DNA of 44,044 nucleotides from a virus: positions 1 to 44,044 of IMG/VR virus record IMGVR_UViG_3300025585_000067; one strand, 5' to 3'. Under the pieces are notes generated by a model that was not told where the DNA came from, searched no databases, and saw only the letters and a list, made by a program, of their open reading frames with translations. The translations under genes and the position numbers were made by a program. Shown here piece after piece: positions 791-33,130 of the stretch (within the stretch, counting starts at the first letter, position 1; each line of letters starts with the position of its first letter).

Positions 791-1867
791 CTAAGAACCG
801 GCGCGGCTTGCCGCGTCCGGTGCGCGCTTTTTGCGCACGAAGTTGCTTGGTTTGTTAGGAGCAGATTCCTCGCGCAAATCTAGACGTGACTGGCGAACGA
901 ACTCATCGATATTAATCGATTCACCGGCGAGAACTTTTTCGTAAATAAAAGTCATTACGTCGACAGGGGTATTTTTATCCAAAAGTCGAAAGGACGAAGC
1001 TGCCACATATTCGGGCGACATTTCGAAAGACATCCATCGGCGACCTTCTTGTTCTGCTACTTGCCCCGTAGTATTGGAGCCACCAAAAATGTCTACAACA
1101 AGATCATTTGGCTCAGTCAACATTCGTATAAAAAACTCAGGAAGCTTTGCGGGAAATCTGGCTGGATGTCCTTTTACTCCTACTGCCTTACATCCGGAAA
1201 GATATAGTCCGTTGGATTCGGAATTTGATATTTGAAGTAAGTTTGGGGGAATAGCTCCACCATTATCTTTGGCGAATCCTTTGCCAATATCGTGCCCTGA
1301 TGGACGAACTTTTGGCGTATAGAATTTATCAGGGTCTTCGATTAGCTTCTTCATTCGTTCACTATATGGTGCGAGCACTTTAGTGATGTCAGATTTCGGC
1401 CATTCGGTTTTGCTGAACCACCACACCGTATTAATTGAATCCTTTACTCGAAGCTTTCTCTTATTCACCCACTCAATCGGACTAGGTAGCTTAGAAGGAT
1501 TGAACCAATAAAAATCTTCAGCAAGAAAATACCCCAGCTCATCAACCAATCGAATTAGCACACGAAAGTTATAGAGACTACGCACCGGGACACCTTTCAT
1601 ATAAGCGCCCCCGAAATCGACAACGAAGCTCCCATCTTTTCGGAGTTTTCTATGAACAATTCGGGCAAATTCTACAAACCAATCGATATATGCATGTTGA
1701 TCCAGGTTGCCATACTCCTTCTGGCGCTGCAGAGCAAACGGTGGGCTTGTGATAACCAGATTGACACTTTCATCTGGCAGCTCACTTAGAAGCTCTATCG
1801 AGTCCCCTATGTATGCACCACCCTTGGCGGTGTAATAAGCGGGCGCGGTTTTTACTTTCATCAACAT
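791..1867 (-). CDS. site-specific DNA methyltransferase (beta class, N4/N6 type)
   Basis: Transfers a methyl group from S-adenosylmethionine to an exocyclic amino group of adenine or cytosine in DNA. The catalytic motif IV is TSPPF (residues 40-44) near the N-terminus and the AdoMet-binding motif I, DIFGGSNTTG (about 259-268), lies near the C-terminus; this order is the beta class. SPPF rather than DPPY leans towards N4-cytosine but does not prove it. A target-recognition region fills residues 90-240. The length, 358 aa, is normal. The start ATG is 34 nt after the upstream 49-aa gene and has a weak ribosome-binding site; ATG at 1861 is an alternative. Base composition is visibly more A/T-rich than the flanks, suggesting recent transfer. 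No restriction endonuclease is adjacent, so it is probably an orphan protective enzyme. Confidence 0.9.
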   Translation of the reverse strand: MLMKVKTAPAYYTAKGGAYIGDSIELLSELPDESVNLVITSPPFALQRQKEYGNLDQHAYIDWFVEFARIVHRKLRKDGSFVVDFGGAYMKGVPVRSLYNFRVLIRLVDELGYFLAEDFYWFNPSKLPSPIEWVNKRKLRVKDSINTVWWFSKTEWPKSDITKVLAPYSERMKKLIEDPDKFYTPKVRPSGHDIGKGFAKDNGGAIPPNLLQISNSESNGLYLSGCKAVGVKGHPARFPAKLPEFFIRMLTEPNDLVVDIFGGSNTTGQVAEQEGRRWMSFEMSPEYVAASSFRLLDKNTPVDVMTFIYEKVLAGESINIDEFVRQSRLDLREESAPNKPSNFVRKKRAPDAASRAGS

Positions 1868-1901
1868 GGGCTGCTACTCATAGTCTGTAGATTCATTGTC
1901 A

Positions 1902-2051
1902 TCATGTGCGCATTATCTGCGTCGGGCCGCGGACCTCGACACTATTGCACAGGGTGTTGCCCTTGTAGGTCTTGACCGTGAGCACGGGCAGCTGGGCGCC
2001 CTTGGCATTGGCGCGGATGTGATGTTGATTGACGTGAATGCGTTTTTTCAT
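1902..2051 (-). CDS. 49-aa protein, N-terminal half of a conserved small phage gene
   Basis: Reads MKKRIHVNQHHIRANAKGAQ then LPVLTVKTYKGNTLCNSVEV and RGPTQIMRT. I recognise the N-terminal block (MKKRIHVNQH, PVLTVKTYKGN, VE..GP) as that of short phage proteins of unknown function. Family members normally continue into a segment like VVYSPDKPLSCGARVWIET, which is missing here; a matching segment is found at 618-746 beyond the methyltransferase gene. The start is fixed by a 4-nt ATGA overlap with the cytosine methyltransferase stop. It may be a truncated gene or still functional in shortened form. Confidence 0.7.
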   Translation of the reverse strand: MKKRIHVNQHHIRANAKGAQLPVLTVKTYKGNTLCNSVEVRGPTQIMRT

Positions 2052-3424
2052 TTCGTCTCTCGCAGTCTGGTTTCTTGATCAATACGACTGCCAATCCACG
2101 CCATCACCGGAACGGCCATTGAATTTCCCAACGCCTTGTATCGCGAGCCGTCCGAGCATTCGTCTGCGGGTTTCTTGCGCCACGGGATGGCGGTGTAGTT
2201 GTCGGGGAAGCCTTGCAGGCGTTCGCACTCCACGGGCGTGAGGCGGCGGACTTGCATGGCGGTACCGACACCGTGCTGCTTCCCAGCCTGCATTGCCACC
2301 GCCGTCGGATTCTTCGCCCCCATCGCTGGCGCAATGTTTTCGGCGCTGGCGTGTTGTGTGGCTGACAGGTTTGCGGGGAAAGCAATGATGGGATGGCCTC
2401 TGCCAGTGCCGTCCTCGCTGCCGTCGAAGCCTTCAGCTTTGAGCGCGTGGGTGCGGTCGCCGGTAACGCAGACAGGCTGCAACACCGCCGTTGGATTCAT
2501 CGCGCCCAAGGCTGGCGACAGGTTTTCTGTGCTGGCGCTTTGCAGTGACTCGTGGAAGACCACCGATGCAACGGCCATTGCGTTGTCACCGGGATCGCTT
2601 CTTATCGTCCCCGTGTGCTCATGATAAAAATGAGTCCCTTCCCTTTTTAATAATCCCGGCTCAAAAGTAATCGACTGCTGAATCACTCCCCCATCGCAGT
2701 CGAAGTCGGTGCCAAGGCCACCGCCGTTAGCGCATCCTGCAATTGTGGGGGCAACTGCTTTCCCCGATTCCCTGCTCGGCGCAGTATCCCGGCGCACGCC
2801 TTCGAACTCAAAAAGAACCGCTGCGGGATCGAACCCGTTTCGAGCACTTGCGACAACGAACACGCGGCGGCGTCGTTGGGCCAAGCCGAAATATTGGGCA
2901 TCGAGGACTCGCCACGCGATTGCCCTTTTGGATCCATACACACAACCAGCGTCCGACCATCTTTTCCCTGCCGGCTGCAGCGGCTCACTTTCTCCGGCAA
3001 GCTCTGCCAAAAAGCATCCGAGGGCGTTGTCTTTTGTGGATAGGACGCCGGGTACGTTTTCCCAGACGATAATGCACTCTGGCTCTCCTCTATTTCTGCG
3101 AACAGTGTCAATTGCATCAGCAAGCTCCAAAAACTTGATTGTTAGTTGTCCCCTATCGTCATCCAGTGACTGACGCAGCCCAGCGACGGAAAACGCTTGG
3201 CATGGCGTACCGCCGACCAGCACATCCGGAGCTTCAATCTCCAGATTATTGACTCTGTCAGCCAAGGCGGTCATGTCTCCGTAGTTGGGTACGCTTGGAT
3301 AATGATGACCTAATACCGCTGAGGGAAACGGTTCAATTTCAGCCAGCCACGCGGCCTCCCACCCAAGCGGGTGCCACGCCACACTTGCTGCCTCAATGCC
3401 ACTACAAACACTACCGTATCTCAT
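2048..3424 (-). CDS. dcm: DNA (cytosine-5-)-methyltransferase, Dcm family
   Basis: Methylates cytosine at C5 in a specific duplex sequence, using S-adenosylmethionine. Motif I (SVCSGIEAASVAW, residues 5-17), the catalytic PCQ loop (GGTPCQAFSVAG, 71-82, nucleophile Cys75), motif VI ENVPG (122-126) and motif VIII QRRRRVFVVA are all intact. The C-terminal motif IX/X region (RLTPVECERLQGFPDNYT) is present. The variable region between about residues 200 and 390 holds two similar segments, ENLSPALGAMNPTAV and ENIAPAMGAKNPTAV, an internal duplication. Length (458 aa) is typical of phage Dcm proteins. The start overlaps the stop of the 67-aa gene by ATGA. It likely protects phage DNA from host restriction. 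Confidence 0.95.
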   Translation of the reverse strand: MRYGSVCSGIEAASVAWHPLGWEAAWLAEIEPFPSAVLGHHYPSVPNYGDMTALADRVNNLEIEAPDVLVGGTPCQAFSVAGLRQSLDDDRGQLTIKFLELADAIDTVRRNRGEPECIIVWENVPGVLSTKDNALGCFLAELAGESEPLQPAGKRWSDAGCVYGSKRAIAWRVLDAQYFGLAQRRRRVFVVASARNGFDPAAVLFEFEGVRRDTAPSRESGKAVAPTIAGCANGGGLGTDFDCDGGVIQQSITFEPGLLKREGTHFYHEHTGTIRSDPGDNAMAVASVVFHESLQSASTENLSPALGAMNPTAVLQPVCVTGDRTHALKAEGFDGSEDGTGRGHPIIAFPANLSATQHASAENIAPAMGAKNPTAVAMQAGKQHGVGTAMQVRRLTPVECERLQGFPDNYTAIPWRKKPADECSDGSRYKALGNSMAVPVMAWIGSRIDQETRLRETK

Positions 3425-30266: not shown

Positions 30267-30509
30267 TTACTCACCATTGCCGTTGATCTTGTTCCACCCA
30301 CCGAGCATAAGCAGGCCGAGAACGAAAATAGTCCCTGCCCTAGCAATGGTCTGCCAGATAGTTTTTTTAATGCCGCGCCAGTCGGTAATCAGTGAGCGAA
30401 GGTCACGAACATCCGTCCCAGCGTCATCATCGTGCAGCCCGACCTCTTTCAAAGCCGACTTCATTTCCTCGCGGACGATTTGACGTAAAGCGATCTCATC
30501 TATGTTCAC
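30267..30509 (-). CDS. small membrane protein of the lysis region (DUF6127-like), 80 aa
   Basis: MNIDEIALRQIVREEMKSAL then KEVGLHDDDAGTDVRDLRSL and ITDWRGIKKTIWQTIARAGT, ending in one membrane segment IFVLGLLMLGGW. The pattern DVRDLRSL..DWR..K.T.W.T..R..T resembles the phage DUF6127 family. The start is GTG with AGAGGTGA 8 nt upstream, 14 nt inside the CysC-like gene. An antiholin or second holin role is plausible from position only. Confidence 0.6.
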   Translation of the reverse strand: MNIDEIALRQIVREEMKSALKEVGLHDDDAGTDVRDLRSLITDWRGIKKTIWQTIARAGTIFVLGLLMLGGWNKINGNGE

Positions 30510-30966
30510 GGGTCATCACCTCTACTGGCATTTCTACGACTGTTAACCGGCTTTTGAACGCCTTGGCGTGTATCTCCTTGGCGTGGTCAACCGTCGGCTT
30601 GCTGAAATTGATAATCCGGTAATCGTATCGCTTCGGTGGAACGAAGATTGAGTTGGTATCCTTGTATCGGCTGGAGGAAATTGTATCCATCCAGACCACG
30701 AAGTCAGCATCAAACGCCGCCCGAGTTTCTTCTGTCGGGCAGACAAAATCTGCTATCACCGCCTCGCCCCAGCGGGAGGACAGGTTACAAAGATGCCCCA
30801 TCCTGCGAGCCTGCTCAATTCTGTCTTCAGGACTAAAACCAAGGTCTTTGTTGATGTTCTCACGAATGTCGTCGGCATTGAAATGGGTACAGCGCAGGCG
30901 CTCTGCCAGCACTCTTGCAAGAGTAGTTTTACCGCTACCCGGCAGGCCCATGATTAGTATTTTCAC
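30496..30966 (-). CDS. adenylylsulfate (APS) kinase-like P-loop kinase, 156 aa
   Basis: P-loop kinase resembling CysC, which phosphorylates APS to PAPS, the universal sulfate donor. The Walker A GLPGSGKTT is at 7-15. The diagnostic stretch FNADDIRENINKDLGFSPED (29-48) then RRMGHLC aligns with the CysC block LDGDNVRHGL..DLGFS.ADR.EN.RR.GE, and IADFVCPTEETRAAF aligns with AFISPHRAERQMVR. The lid region (SSSRYKDTNSIFVPPKRYDY) is shorter and replaces the CysC DPKGLYKKA segment, so substrate choice is uncertain. A GTG start is coupled (GTGA) to the upstream tail-fibre-assembly-like gene. Adjacent to a sulfotransferase-like gene, it could supply PAPS for it. Confidence 0.75.
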   Translation of the reverse strand: MKILIMGLPGSGKTTLARVLAERLRCTHFNADDIRENINKDLGFSPEDRIEQARRMGHLCNLSSRWGEAVIADFVCPTEETRAAFDADFVVWMDTISSSRYKDTNSIFVPPKRYDYRIINFSKPTVDHAKEIHAKAFKSRLTVVEMPVEVMTREHR

Positions 30967-31364
30967 AGCGCGTCTAGTTCTTCGTGCGTGGTGATTGCAG
31001 CGAGTGCAGTTGTCTTGGTTTCAAACTCTACGCGGGCAGCGTCAACCACGGCAGCGTCGTACTGGGTAGTGGGGAACTCGTCTACCTCTTTACGCATCTC
31101 GTCGTTTACAACCTGCTGGAAGGCTGTTTTGTAGCGTGAGGCATACTGGCCCTTGCGCTCATCGACGCTGATCTCACGCACGCCCCAGACAATCTCTACG
31201 GGGTCTTTGGTCAGATCAAAGCTGTGTTCAGTGTACTGCTGACGGCTGGTCAGAACAGGGCGAACTTCAATGGCAGACTTCCAGCCAGACTCACCGGCAG
31301 GCGGCTGCGTGTCCCAGACCTGAGTTACTTCATTGTTTGCTATTTTGACAAATAAATTACTCAT
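30963..31364 (-). CDS. phage tail protein of the fibre-assembly type, 133 aa
   Basis: MSNLFVKIANNEVTQVWDTQ then PPAGESGWKSAIEVRPVLTS and RQQYTEHSFDLTKDPVEIVW followed by VREISVDERKGQYASRYKTA. The pattern of an N-terminal beta domain and a helix with ISVDERKG resembles small tail-fibre assembly or tail-tip chaperones. It lies between the sulfotransferase fusion and the CysC-like kinase, overlapping both by 4 nt, so it is translated in the same unit. The assignment is tentative. Confidence 0.5.
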   Translation of the reverse strand: MSNLFVKIANNEVTQVWDTQPPAGESGWKSAIEVRPVLTSRQQYTEHSFDLTKDPVEIVWGVREISVDERKGQYASRYKTAFQQVVNDEMRKEVDEFPTTQYDAAVVDAARVEFETKTTALAAITTHEELDAL

Positions 31365-33130
31365 TTTACCCTCCTCAATACTTGCTTCTCGCTAAGACGT
31401 TCTTTAATGCGCTCAAACGGAGCCGTCCAGTCACCGAACACTTCTTGCCGCATGAGCTTCATGGTGTCGTAGTAGGGGCAGGTCTCTCCTTCAAGGGCGT
31501 ACAGGAAGTACGGCATCACCGGAGTCACGACCCACGTCTCCACGCCCATCGCAGCCGACAAGTGGCTCACCGAAGTACACGCAGAGATCACCAAATCACA
31601 CGATGCCGCAGCAGCGCGGGTATCTTCCCAGCTATTCAGCGGAACCTGCTTCACCCATGACGGGCAGAAGTCTGCACCCTCATCACGTTGCAGGGAAATG
31701 AACTCCGCATCTGCGTCCTTCACGGCATCAAACATCAGGTCATAGGGAAACTTCTTCTGGTGCTCGTTCTCGAACGCCATCTGCCCCTGCCAGCGCAGCC
31801 CTATGCGTTTCTTGCGGCCCCTGATTACTTTGGGCTTGGTCAGGTAAGGCTTACCACTCAAGTCGTTCAGTTCAAAGCCCAGAGGCACTACGGCGCTCAT
31901 GCCCTGAACAAAGTAGTCGTGGTAGATACCGAACGAGGCTTCGTGCTGGATGACAGCGGAGACGCCCTCTACACCAACGAACAGGGATGCAAGAGGCCCA
32001 GTGCAGGACACAATGACTTTGCACCCACGATCTGCGATTGCTTTGGCGTACCTGACTTGATGTATCTGATCGCCAAGACCGCCTTCGAGGTAGAGCATAA
32101 CGATGCCCTTGCTCTTGCCATCCCAAGGCGCGGTCGGTACATCAGGGCGCTTGTTGCCAAACACTCCCACGATGCGACCACGATCCATCAGCTGATAGCC
32201 TTTCTGCAGCTTGCCCTGACGGAGCATGTACCAGCCCCGGTTGTAGGCAGCTCGGTGGTTGTCAGGCTCGTCGGCTTCTAGTTTCTGGCACAGTCTCCAG
32301 CCCTCGGCAAAGTCGCCCATGCGGCTGGCGGCAAGTTGCAGATCAAGGTCGTGCAACTCAGGGACGGTGCGCGGGCGATCAAGCCAGAACTCAGGCTGGC
32401 AGAACATTGAATAGTGGTGCTTCAATAAATCCTTGGGGTTGTCGCTGTGCTGTTTTTGCAGGACGGGCTTGATGTCGTGCATGCCTTCGTAGCCGTGCAA
32501 GTTCTCGTCGTCCTCTTTTACCGAGGAGCCGTCGATGTTGCTGAAGTCATAGTCGAACGCGGGCAGGTCGAGGAACGTGTGAATCCGATCCAGCTGCGCC
32601 TTGGCGTCGGCAAGAAGGTCTTCGTACTCCACGAACAGGAAGCACTCGGGGTCGTACTCGTAGCCCTGCTGCAGTGAGATATAGGCGGCTTTCAGGTGAT
32701 CCGCAAGCTGCCCGGAGTACATGAACTCTTCTAGGCTCTCAGGCTTGGCTACCCGCACGAAGGACGCCATGCAGTCAGGTACAGAGCGTACAGTGGCGAT
32801 AATCTTGGGCTTGTGCCCCAGCACCTGCCCCATTGCTTGCATGATGACCGGGATCGGCCACCCACGACCCTTGTCAATTACCACAGGCTTGTCGGTCTCT
32901 CCATAGAACGCATCAATCATCCCGCGCATGGTCTGAGCGAGCTTGGTGCGGTCCTTGTCGTTCTCGTTCAACAGCCCGGCTTGGTGCCATGTCGTTGCCA
33001 GCCCGTCCAGCGCGTGAACCAGCCCTGACGTAGTGGAAACGTGCGTCTGTGGGTTCTGGTTAAGTATCGCCGCCAGCACAGTTGAGCCGGAACGGGGGAT
33101 ACCTGAGAGAAAGTGAAGGGTTTTGTTCAT
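31361..33130 (-). CDS. sulfotransferase-TPR-glycosyltransferase fusion protein, 589 aa
   Basis: N-terminal sulfotransferase-like domain: the 5'-phosphosulfate loop IPRSGSTVLA (11-20), VVIDKGRGWP (83-92), the 3'-phosphate-binding IIATVRSVPDCMASF (110-124) and FVEYEDLL (166-173). Residues about 265-320 look like tetratricopeptide helices (DFAEGWRLCQKLEADEPDNH). The C-terminal part (342-570) resembles GT9/GT41 glycosyltransferases: MLYLEGGLGDQIHQVRYAKA, ISLQRDEGAD and DLVISACTSVSHLSAAMGVE. The two activities are inferred from fold-level motifs; the acceptors are unknown. The start at 33130 has a modest AGTAGGTT site and excludes a longer frame running from the RCC1 gene. It follows the RCC1 tail gene and precedes the CysC-like kinase gene. 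Confidence 0.72.
   Translation of the reverse strand: MNKTLHFLSGIPRSGSTVLAAILNQNPQTHVSTTSGLVHALDGLATTWHQAGLLNENDKDRTKLAQTMRGMIDAFYGETDKPVVIDKGRGWPIPVIMQAMGQVLGHKPKIIATVRSVPDCMASFVRVAKPESLEEFMYSGQLADHLKAAYISLQQGYEYDPECFLFVEYEDLLADAKAQLDRIHTFLDLPAFDYDFSNIDGSSVKEDDENLHGYEGMHDIKPVLQKQHSDNPKDLLKHHYSMFCQPEFWLDRPRTVPELHDLDLQLAASRMGDFAEGWRLCQKLEADEPDNHRAAYNRGWYMLRQGKLQKGYQLMDRGRIVGVFGNKRPDVPTAPWDGKSKGIVMLYLEGGLGDQIHQVRYAKAIADRGCKVIVSCTGPLASLFVGVEGVSAVIQHEASFGIYHDYFVQGMSAVVPLGFELNDLSGKPYLTKPKVIRGRKKRIGLRWQGQMAFENEHQKKFPYDLMFDAVKDADAEFISLQRDEGADFCPSWVKQVPLNSWEDTRAAAASCDLVISACTSVSHLSAAMGVETWVVTPVMPYFLYALEGETCPYYDTMKLMRQEVFGDWTAPFERIKERLSEKQVLRRVK

Follow-up and report, generated by a model that had tools for sequence, protein, structure and literature searches.

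A candidate receptor-binding-protein cassette in phages, with a sulfotransferase-glycosyltransferase fusion and an APS-kinase-like kinase

Introduction

Glycosylation of phage virions is known. Sulfotransferase genes also occur in phage genomes; the accessible text of a study of OM43 phage genomes states that their role is unclear (PMC10580990), and that of a second paper mentions a viral sulfotransferase in passing (PMC13299392). Our literature search, which had partial coverage, turned up neither a phage sulfotransferase described together with an adenosine 5'-phosphosulfate (APS) kinase nor any account of tail sulfation. Synechococcus phage S-SRM01 (NC_070963) carries RCC1-repeat, tetratricopeptide repeat (TPR)-glycosyltransferase and sulfotransferase genes together behind its distal tail-fibre gene, and mass spectrometry detected three phrog_4219 RCC1 proteins in the virions of Escherichia phage W70, as the available part of that report describes (PMC11370258). 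Here we analyse a related gene set of a water-dwelling phage, in a 44,044-base virus record that IMG/VR classes as linear (IMGVR_UViG_3300025585_000067; this whole stretch is called the window below). It encodes an RCC1-repeat protein, a 589-aa protein joining a sulfotransferase to a glycosyltransferase (the fusion), a 133-aa protein and a 156-aa kinase. An earlier note, made from the sequence alone, had proposed that the kinase and the fusion supply activated sulfate and decorate either a host polysaccharide or the phage tail itself. Our comparison favours the tail, and the cassette may explain what phage sulfotransferases are for.

Results

A sulfotransferase fused to a heptosyltransferase-like domain

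The 589-aa protein is a natural fusion of a Sulfotransfer_3 domain, a weak TPR-like linker and a heptosyltransferase-like GT-B domain. The N-terminal half matched Pfam Sulfotransfer_3 (PF13469) over residues 7-192, well above the gathering score (E = 8.3e-17; 62.6 bits against 27), and residues 1-251 matched phrog_27463, a family of unknown function (E = 2e-47). The P12-R-S-G-S-T17 loop, R115 and S123 were invariant in all 31 fusion rows; we take the PRSGxT loop to be the 5'-phosphosulfate loop, and R115 and S123 to be the Arg and Ser of the 3'-phosphate site, of 3'-phosphoadenosine 5'-phosphosulfate (PAPS). In fold, residues 1-257 resembled the tyrosylprotein sulfotransferase TPST1 (VIA Z 16.8, root-mean-square deviation (rmsd) 3.8, 238 residues aligned). 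The PAPS-binding loops picked out in the earlier note stand, and we predict with high confidence that the sulfotransferase half uses PAPS.

Likeness to TPST does not extend to the acid that we take to be catalytic in TPST, a Glu in the loop after PRSGTT. In the phmmer alignment the Glu pair of this loop (GEETR in TPST2) aligns with STTSG of the fusion, a Thr-Thr pair, and we therefore make no claim of tyrosine sulfation. At position 33, 29 of the 31 rows have T and the other two A. Nor do we call the protein a TPST in the strict sense, the Glu being missing in the one alignment seen.

Over residues 342-583 the nearest fold was that of WaaC (VIA Z 15.6, rmsd 3.3, 226 residues aligned), followed over similar ranges by TibC (Z 14.9) and the GT9 protein 3tov (Z 14.7). 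G351, G353, D354, Q355, C518-T-S520 and H523 were invariant in the 31 fusion proteins. Since no Pfam glycosyltransferase family, Glyco_transf_9 included, matched this half at E up to 1, the assignment relies on the fold and on tblastn links to cyanophage TPR proteins. Of the GT9/GT41-like C-terminus suggested earlier, the GT9 heptosyltransferase fold was recovered; GT41 (OGT-like) was not among the 50 VIA rows listed, which excludes nothing. The suggested TPR-like middle survives only as a weak TPR_16 match (E = 0.015, scoring 16.2 bits where the cut-off is 32.7), with a predicted local distance difference test score (pLDDT) of 35-58 over residues 251-340. From the modelled fold, the C-terminal half is very likely a sugar transferase. 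Among named phage records, tblastn found none that spans 80% of the fusion in one place.

The kinase resembles APS kinases

The 156-aa protein matched Pfam APS_kinase over residues 3-84 (62 bits against a gathering score of 21.1), with general AAA families behind, and matched phrog_10255, annotated 'kinase' (E = 1.3e-34). When a profile of 23 relatives was compared with PDB sequences, PAPSS and CysC chains, which are APS kinases, ranked first; apart from two very long chains (9d2f and 9fqr; adenylate kinase 9, a cilia protein), the first other kinase was an adenylate kinase (E = 7e-05). Structure gave the same ranking. Every one of the 50 Foldseek matches listed for the AlphaFold model (pLDDT 89.6) was an APS kinase, a PAPS synthetase or an ATP sulfurylase with an APS-kinase-like domain, and rows 1-30 of the VIA comparison were all APS-kinase-domain chains (Z 16.6-19.0; 126-149 residues aligned; rmsd 1.7-5.2). 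Gluconate kinase came next at Z 15.7, close to the lowest of these 30 rows. The earlier note had asked for APS kinases, rather than unrelated P-loop kinases, as the best structural matches, and these are what both methods returned. With APS kinases first by profile and by fold, a polynucleotide, gluconate or adenylate kinase was rejected as the nearest kind.

Residues G7, G12-K-T14, D32, R35, F44 and R49 were invariant in 23 of 23 kinase rows. The last four remained so in all 62 rows of a larger alignment, in which they align with PAPSS1 residues that we take to be the APS-site Asp, Arg, Phe and Arg. The kinase probably makes PAPS.

The kinase recurs with several kinds of sulfotransferase

A search with the fusion returned 31 viral loci. 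Three kinase queries gave 416, 410 and 432 confirmed stretches, the latter two adding distant forms; the best 80 were kept from each, so the kinase sample leans to near relatives. After loci on the same contig were merged, the kinase queries contributed 124 contigs, for which flanks of up to 6 kb per side were fetched. A sulfotransferase lay near the kinase in 64 of these, a weak candidate in 15 and none in 31, and the left flank was too short in 14. Counted as 55 clusters at 90% kinase identity, the corresponding numbers were 30, 6, 15 and 4. The gene set thus recurs in many phages, which the earlier note had named as a check.

The sulfotransferases themselves vary. Among the 64 contigs, 56 had Sulfotransfer_3-type genes only and six Sulfotransfer_2-type genes only; one carried both Sulfotransfer_3-type and ST176 labels, and one (L176) was weak by Pfam. 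The nearest sulfotransferase was the next gene to the kinase in 39 of the 64, and exceeded 330 aa, as a rule being the fusion, in 20. Besides the fusion there were free Sulfotransfer_3 proteins, whose called lengths were about 247-320 aa, and one Sulfotransfer_2 protein of 195 aa (E = 1e-11). On a tree of 62 kinases the label 'fused' needs nine changes (seven forced by well-supported branches) and 'free' eight (six forced), and the labels interleave; the bootstrap of this tree had not settled, five of its rows entered via the fusion query and one (L113) carries a false ST176 label. Because the sulfotransferase families differ and the tree demands these changes, the kinase appears to have met different kinds of sulfotransferase several times.

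Scoring used hidden Markov models built from these same loci, so divergent sulfotransferases can be missed; 55 sequences went into st.hmm, two into ST2 and three into STC, and for ST101, ST176 and RCC1 a single sequence was entered twice. At least four of the 31 contigs scored as having none are false or cut short: a sulfotransferase or fusion end is present in L071, L045 and L180 (L180 and L078 being one contig), and L121 stops just past the kinase, at the place where its near-copies carry a sulfotransferase. In L042 and L092, scored as too short or uncounted, the contig ends within the fusion. Of two further loci scored as too short, L084 has no Sulfotransfer_3 match in its whole 24-kb record and L060 has one elsewhere in its record. 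Viewed from the other side, the 31 loci found with the fusion comprised eight with the kinase, among them three near-copies of the window, as well as 11 without it and 12 that were uninformative.

The glycosyltransferase half travels with an RCC1 protein

The RCC1 protein of the window matched phrog_7220 (E = 4.2e-46) and phrog_4219 (E = 3.4e-44), and its N-terminus, MSGILQ, resembles by eye the MSGILQ or MSGALQ of proteins in the same slot elsewhere (L049, L198). Of 42 informative glycosyltransferase-bearing genes, 41 had an RCC1 gene no more than 3 kb away, and in 40 it was adjacent; two more glycosyltransferase-bearing genes had too little flank. The 42 include the gene of phage BUCT-ZZ01, which lacks a sulfotransferase half, and locus L147, where the sulfotransferase and TPR-glycosyltransferase are separate. 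Near free sulfotransferases RCC1 was found once in 32, and that one is a fusion cut by the contig end (L032), hence 0 of 31. These counts cover loci numbered below L200; the higher numbers are lysozyme-picked loci, contigs of metagenome-assembled genomes (MAGs), S-SRM01 and AG-345-E08. Among contigs from genome collections that carry the fusion, RCC1 adjoins it in three of three. A cellular origin was rejected on the same scan, in which just two short peptide patterns gave 86 matches and three relatives, all on MAG contigs with RCC1 adjoining the fusion; the longest of these (28 kb, of which 17.8 kb were read) is phage-like by eye.

We also sampled tail loci by lysozyme alone. Of 80 loci, 38 were informative, with at least 4.5 kb upstream: five had the kinase and a sulfotransferase, one (L042) had the kinase with its sulfotransferase lost at the contig end, and 32 had neither. 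RCC1 occurred in kinase-bearing loci only (Fisher 1.2e-5, a value that ignores relatedness and includes two near-copies of the window, L200 and L201).

A sister phage, L202, has another set of genes in place of the cassette. Its DUF6127 protein is 100% identical to that of the window, with g156 at 98%, g161 at 99% and lysozyme at 94%; residues 1-244 of the 454-aa protein upstream of the cassette are also common to both (79%). Between these, a 640-aa protein and a 163-aa gene replace RCC1, fusion, 133-aa gene and kinase, the 163-aa gene standing in the 133-aa slot. We infer a tail role for the 640-aa protein from its place and from a motif that, by eye, it has in common with a DUF7483 protein of L047. 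The gene beyond lysozyme is only 41% identical, so L202 is a relative with exchanged parts rather than a near-copy. In 11 of 13 loci inspected, a different tail-type protein is followed by a gene of about 140 aa, then by a free sulfotransferase and, immediately after it, the kinase. The sole such tail-type protein scanned, that of L081, has fn3 and Lcl_C domains; these proteins are possibly variable receptor-binding proteins. Several of those that precede a sulfotransferase (L081:3726-4736, and similarly L047, L049, L055 and L198) end, by eye, in a VRAxRRxAV-like motif.

Named phages show the same company. The best RCC1 records are also the best records for the glycosyltransferase half: BUCT-ZZ01, two S-SRM01 records and AG-345-E08. 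The genes of S-SRM01 run from the distal long tail fibre through RCC1, hypothetical, RCC1, TPR-glycosyltransferase, 2-oxoglutarate (2OG) oxygenase and four hypotheticals to RCC1 and sulfotransferase, so that the TPR-glycosyltransferase and the sulfotransferase each directly follow an RCC1 gene; no kinase relative was found in the 19 kb read. Three RCC1 genes are present in AG-345-E08; a TPR-glycosyltransferase lies two genes behind one of them and a sulfotransferase directly behind another. In BUCT-ZZ01 a tail fibre and a hypothetical gene precede a 700-aa protein, annotated BNR, in which RCC1 matched 14 times, and then the glycosyltransferase gene (L115:4857-6572), which has no fused sulfotransferase; its C-terminal part weakly matches a methyltransferase, below cut-off, and the sugar transferase may thus pair with different decorating domains. 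One contig (L147:2-6804) holds RCC1 genes, a free sulfotransferase, a separate TPR-glycosyltransferase-like gene and a fusion of the kinase to a nucleotidyltransferase.

Taken together, the RCC1 linkage, the exchange in L202 and the named phages favour the phage tail itself over a host polysaccharide, as between the two targets offered by the earlier note. The RCC1 protein is probably a receptor-binding tail protein and the proposed acceptor; that the tail protein is the acceptor seems to us somewhat more likely than not.

Sugar-activation and nucleotidyltransferase genes in related islands

Relatives of the HldE-type heptose-1-phosphate adenylyltransferase adjoin the kinase in L129 (E = 4.4e-50, 169 bits) and L144 (E = 1.5e-48, 164 bits), both scores lying a little under the NCBIfam cut-off of 181.5, and a relative of the HldE kinase part occurs in L144 and AG-345-O18. 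Together with the WaaC/TibC-like fold, these genes suggest an ADP-heptose donor. HldE-type genes were not among the families found in the cassette of the window, where the donor would therefore have to come from the host. Islands that share such ADP-heptose-type genes with sulfotransferases lie at L129:6438-7472, L144:6405-7821, L116:6037-7497 and L047:2811-3119, the relatives being HldE domain II, the HldE kinase part, a cupin and a HAD phosphatase.

Many kinase relatives in other phages are fused to, or adjoin, a small HIGH-motif nucleotidyltransferase (among them L153:5992-6824, L158:5992-7456, L174:5989-6777, L176:5989-6771 and L112:4992-5732). In human PAPS synthetase, too, the kinase domain precedes the nucleotidyltransferase. 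The partner keeps GRxQPxHxGH and ISAT in 20 of 20 rows and gave one weak match to ATP sulfurylase (0.0065). At several of the kinase-nucleotidyltransferase loci a 204-210-aa protein follows, with at best a weak Sulfotransfer_3 match.

Other genes near the kinase or its relatives were recognised by eye: carbamoyltransferase-like genes in large aquatic phages (L136:6435-7889 and L139:7167-8654), and the start of a flavin-dependent halogenase-like protein (L104:8877-9684), on a stretch that also carries a distant kinase relative.

Layout of the locus

All genes of the cassette lie on the minus strand (Table 1) and are transcribed in the order 454-aa gene, RCC1 gene, fusion, 133-aa gene, kinase and DUF6127 gene, after which come two small genes, lysozyme and a virion structural gene. 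The kinase and fusion, with their motifs, are where the earlier note had placed them; they are not neighbours as it described, since the 133-aa gene, which it did not mention, stands between. The 4-nt coupled starts it reported hold between fusion and 133-aa gene (ATGA) and between 133-aa gene and kinase (GTGA); RCC1 and fusion are separated by an 8-nt gap without overlap. For the fusion, an in-frame ATG further upstream would yield 610 aa; the ATG at 33130 is preferred because relatives align from its residue 1, beginning MNKTLHF or MKKQLHF.

The 133-aa protein gave nothing useful in Pfam, PHROGs or NCBIfam; from its position it is perhaps a tail-assembly helper. The 454-aa protein matched no Pfam family. 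No named phage gave a blastn match to the window stretch.

Table 1. Genes of the cassette and its edges in the window
Feature	Length	Position	Strand	Basis and remarks
Tail-fibre-like gene	454 aa	34244..35608	-	Called by position and by eye; upstream of cassette
RCC1-repeat (beta-propeller) protein	367 aa	33139..34242	-	RCC1 PF00415, E 8.7e-83, 7 stretches
Fusion	589 aa	31361..33130	-	Sulfotransferase ~1-257; weak TPR-like linker ~258-330; heptosyltransferase-like GT-B ~342-583
Small protein	133 aa	30963..31364	-	Between fusion and kinase; blastp relatives in many cassettes
APS-kinase-like P-loop kinase	156 aa	30496..30966	-	GTG start; APS_kinase E 8.4e-17
DUF6127 protein		30267..30509	-	DUF6127 E 2.4e-14; downstream edge of exchanged block

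Elsewhere in the window, two adjoining DNA methyltransferase genes (phrog_67 and phrog_116) lie near the left end at 791-3424. At that end (1-53) there is a short tandem repeat, the first 25 bases repeating with a 14-base period.

Discussion

We propose that the locus is a swappable receptor-binding-protein cassette with its own glycosylation and sulfation enzymes and a top-up of PAPS, a reading to which we give a probability of about 0.5. It builds on observed genes, domains, folds, conserved cofactor-site residues, recurrent linkages and the replacement of the block. The RCC1 beta-propeller would be the tail protein. The GT-B half would place a sugar on it, most likely heptose-like and from a nucleotide donor, while the TPR-like linker would help to keep the acceptor protein in place. 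The N-terminal half would then move sulfate from PAPS onto that sugar or protein, and the small kinase would turn host-made APS into PAPS, making sulfation independent of the host pool.

A number of observations weigh against this proposal, most of them concerning the kinase. It falls far below the cut-off of the NCBIfam equivalog apsK (TIGR00455; 56.6 bits against 138.7). Beyond residue 84 it has no Pfam match and its C-terminal half is unlike APS kinase; the position aligned to the APS-kinase Asn, which we take to be an APS-site residue, is Q in 51, H in 10 and X in one of 62 rows. Neither that Asn nor the KxLY / FTG lid, presumably part of the second half of APS kinases, is present in the window kinase. 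What stands of the CysC-like kinase first proposed is that APS kinases come first by profile and fold; a CysC orthologue was rejected on the apsK score, the missing Asn and lid and the unmatched second half, and we therefore call the protein APS-kinase-like. Its company is also imperfect. No sulfotransferase was in reach in 15 of 51 informative kinase clusters. In 32 records searched whole, mostly chosen for having no sulfotransferase nearby, Sulfotransfer_2 was found in four (one being L105, already counted) and Sulfotransfer_3 in none at E 0.001; a separate whole-record search found Sulfotransfer_3 in two of 19. Several kinases without a reachable sulfotransferase lie, by eye, among DNA or nucleotide genes, and the nucleotidyltransferase partners are nearest to nicotinamide mononucleotide (NMN) adenylyltransferases by sequence, which hints at another substrate there; the family may accordingly include kinases of more than one substrate. 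Finally, of the 19 informative fusion loci 11 lack the kinase, each of these having at least 3.5 kb downstream, and the kinase is therefore optional. This loose link fits a helper kinase that host PAPS can replace, and also a kinase doing something else.

The latter alternative, in which the kinase acts on another small molecule (nucleoside, sugar or nicotinamide riboside-like compound) and host PAPS serves the sulfotransferase, would account for the altered C-terminal half and Asn position, the NMN-adenylyltransferase-like partners, the absence from those 11 loci and the neighbours in L106, which look by eye like dihydrofolate reductase and thymidylate synthase. We nevertheless consider it unlikely, given the repeated pairing with sulfotransferases of several families, the retention of D32, R35, F44 and R49 in 62 of 62 rows and the first rank of APS kinases by fold and profile.

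Three points against our proposal concern the fusion and the tail. The model of the fusion is only fair (pLDDT 71, predicted template modelling score 0.45), so its domain arrangement is not to be trusted. MW202512, one of the four named records with the glycosyltransferase, shows no RCC1 in the 14 kb read and is not among the 28 records with an RCC1 match; the major capsid gene is three genes away from its TPR gene. In the available text on W70, the authors suspect a DNA-packing rather than a tail role for the RCC1 proteins (PMC11370258). The enzyme activities, acceptor, sugar and product on the virion are, moreover, themselves inferred.

The same enzymes might instead sulfate and glycosylate a host surface polysaccharide or lipopolysaccharide (LPS) in the course of infection, so that released phage avoids debris or other phages are shut out. 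The glycosyltransferase half does resemble WaaC, an LPS heptosyltransferase, and phage surface-modifying genes often lie near tail genes. Against a host-surface target, RCC1 accompanies the glycosyltransferase half and not the free sulfotransferases, the set is swapped as one block with a tail-type protein in L202, and Pfam recognised no polysaccharide-export family among the genes of the block. The nearest structures of both halves also include protein-modifying enzymes, TPST and TibC, the latter of which modifies a secreted protein. We regard this alternative, too, as improbable.

Less probable by far is that tail loci are cargo hot spots in which RCC1, fusion and kinase co-travel without acting on one another. 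Cassettes do gain and lose the kinase, many modification genes lie by eye near tails in aquatic phages, and MW202512 has the glycosyltransferase without RCC1. Mere co-travel is hard to square with RCC1 beside 41 of 42 glycosyltransferase-bearing genes and 0 of 31 free sulfotransferases, or with the recurrence of RCC1, TPR-glycosyltransferase and sulfotransferase as separate genes in S-SRM01, AG-345-E08 and L147. An auxiliary metabolic role in steering host sulfur metabolism, the class to which two metagenome papers assign viral sulfotransferases in their accessible parts (PMC8290583, PMC12285232), is very improbable for a cassette that sits inside a tail operon and is replaced by another tail-type protein in L202, with no ATP sulfurylase or CysH among the 20 window proteins scanned, a subset of the open reading frames.

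Such a cassette would extend virion-modification genes to sulfation with cofactor supply. The swappable cassette, together with the links found, leads to a concrete and testable proposal, that phages sulfate and glycosylate their own receptor-binding proteins, and S-SRM01, with its named host strain, offers a system for testing it. If true, sulfation joins glycosylation among virion modifications, which would bear on host recognition, on stability in water and on how defences recognise the phage. More tentatively, sulfated glycoprotein tail tips may be widespread among aquatic phages, built by a receptor-binding-protein cassette, a bifunctional sulfotransferase-glycosyltransferase and a PAPS-making kinase, with some lineages adding ADP-heptose genes or a fused kinase-nucleotidyltransferase, possibly a miniature PAPS synthetase.

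Each component has a described counterpart from which it departs. The kinase shares the P-loop kinase fold of APS kinases (CysC or the PAPSS domain), with D32, R35, F44 and R49 aligned to their residues; it is shorter than CysC, differs in its second half and lid, carries a DTNxxFxPP motif instead, has Q or H in place of N at one position and scores under the NCBIfam cut-off. TPST1 and TPST2 (PDB 5wrj, 3ap1) are the nearest fold to the sulfotransferase half and share the PRSGxT loop, at 14-17% identity and with their Glu pair replaced by Thr-Thr in the fusion. WaaC (PDB 2h1f), TibC (PDB 4rap) and GT9 share the GT-B fold over about residues 342-583, at 9-15% identity; the window glycosyltransferase has no Pfam GT9 match and is fused to a sulfotransferase. 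OM43 phages are marine phages that, like the window, have a Sulfotransfer_3 protein, one similar to that of S-SRM01, and the accessible text describes no link to a kinase, fusion or RCC1 protein (PMC10580990). The RCC1 proteins of W70 share phrog_4219 with the window protein, and the available part of that report describes no sulfotransferase link (PMC11370258). S-SRM01 has the sulfotransferase and TPR-glycosyltransferase as separate genes and adds a 2OG oxygenase, a beta-1,4-glycosyltransferase and an epimerase, where the window joins the two enzymes in one protein.

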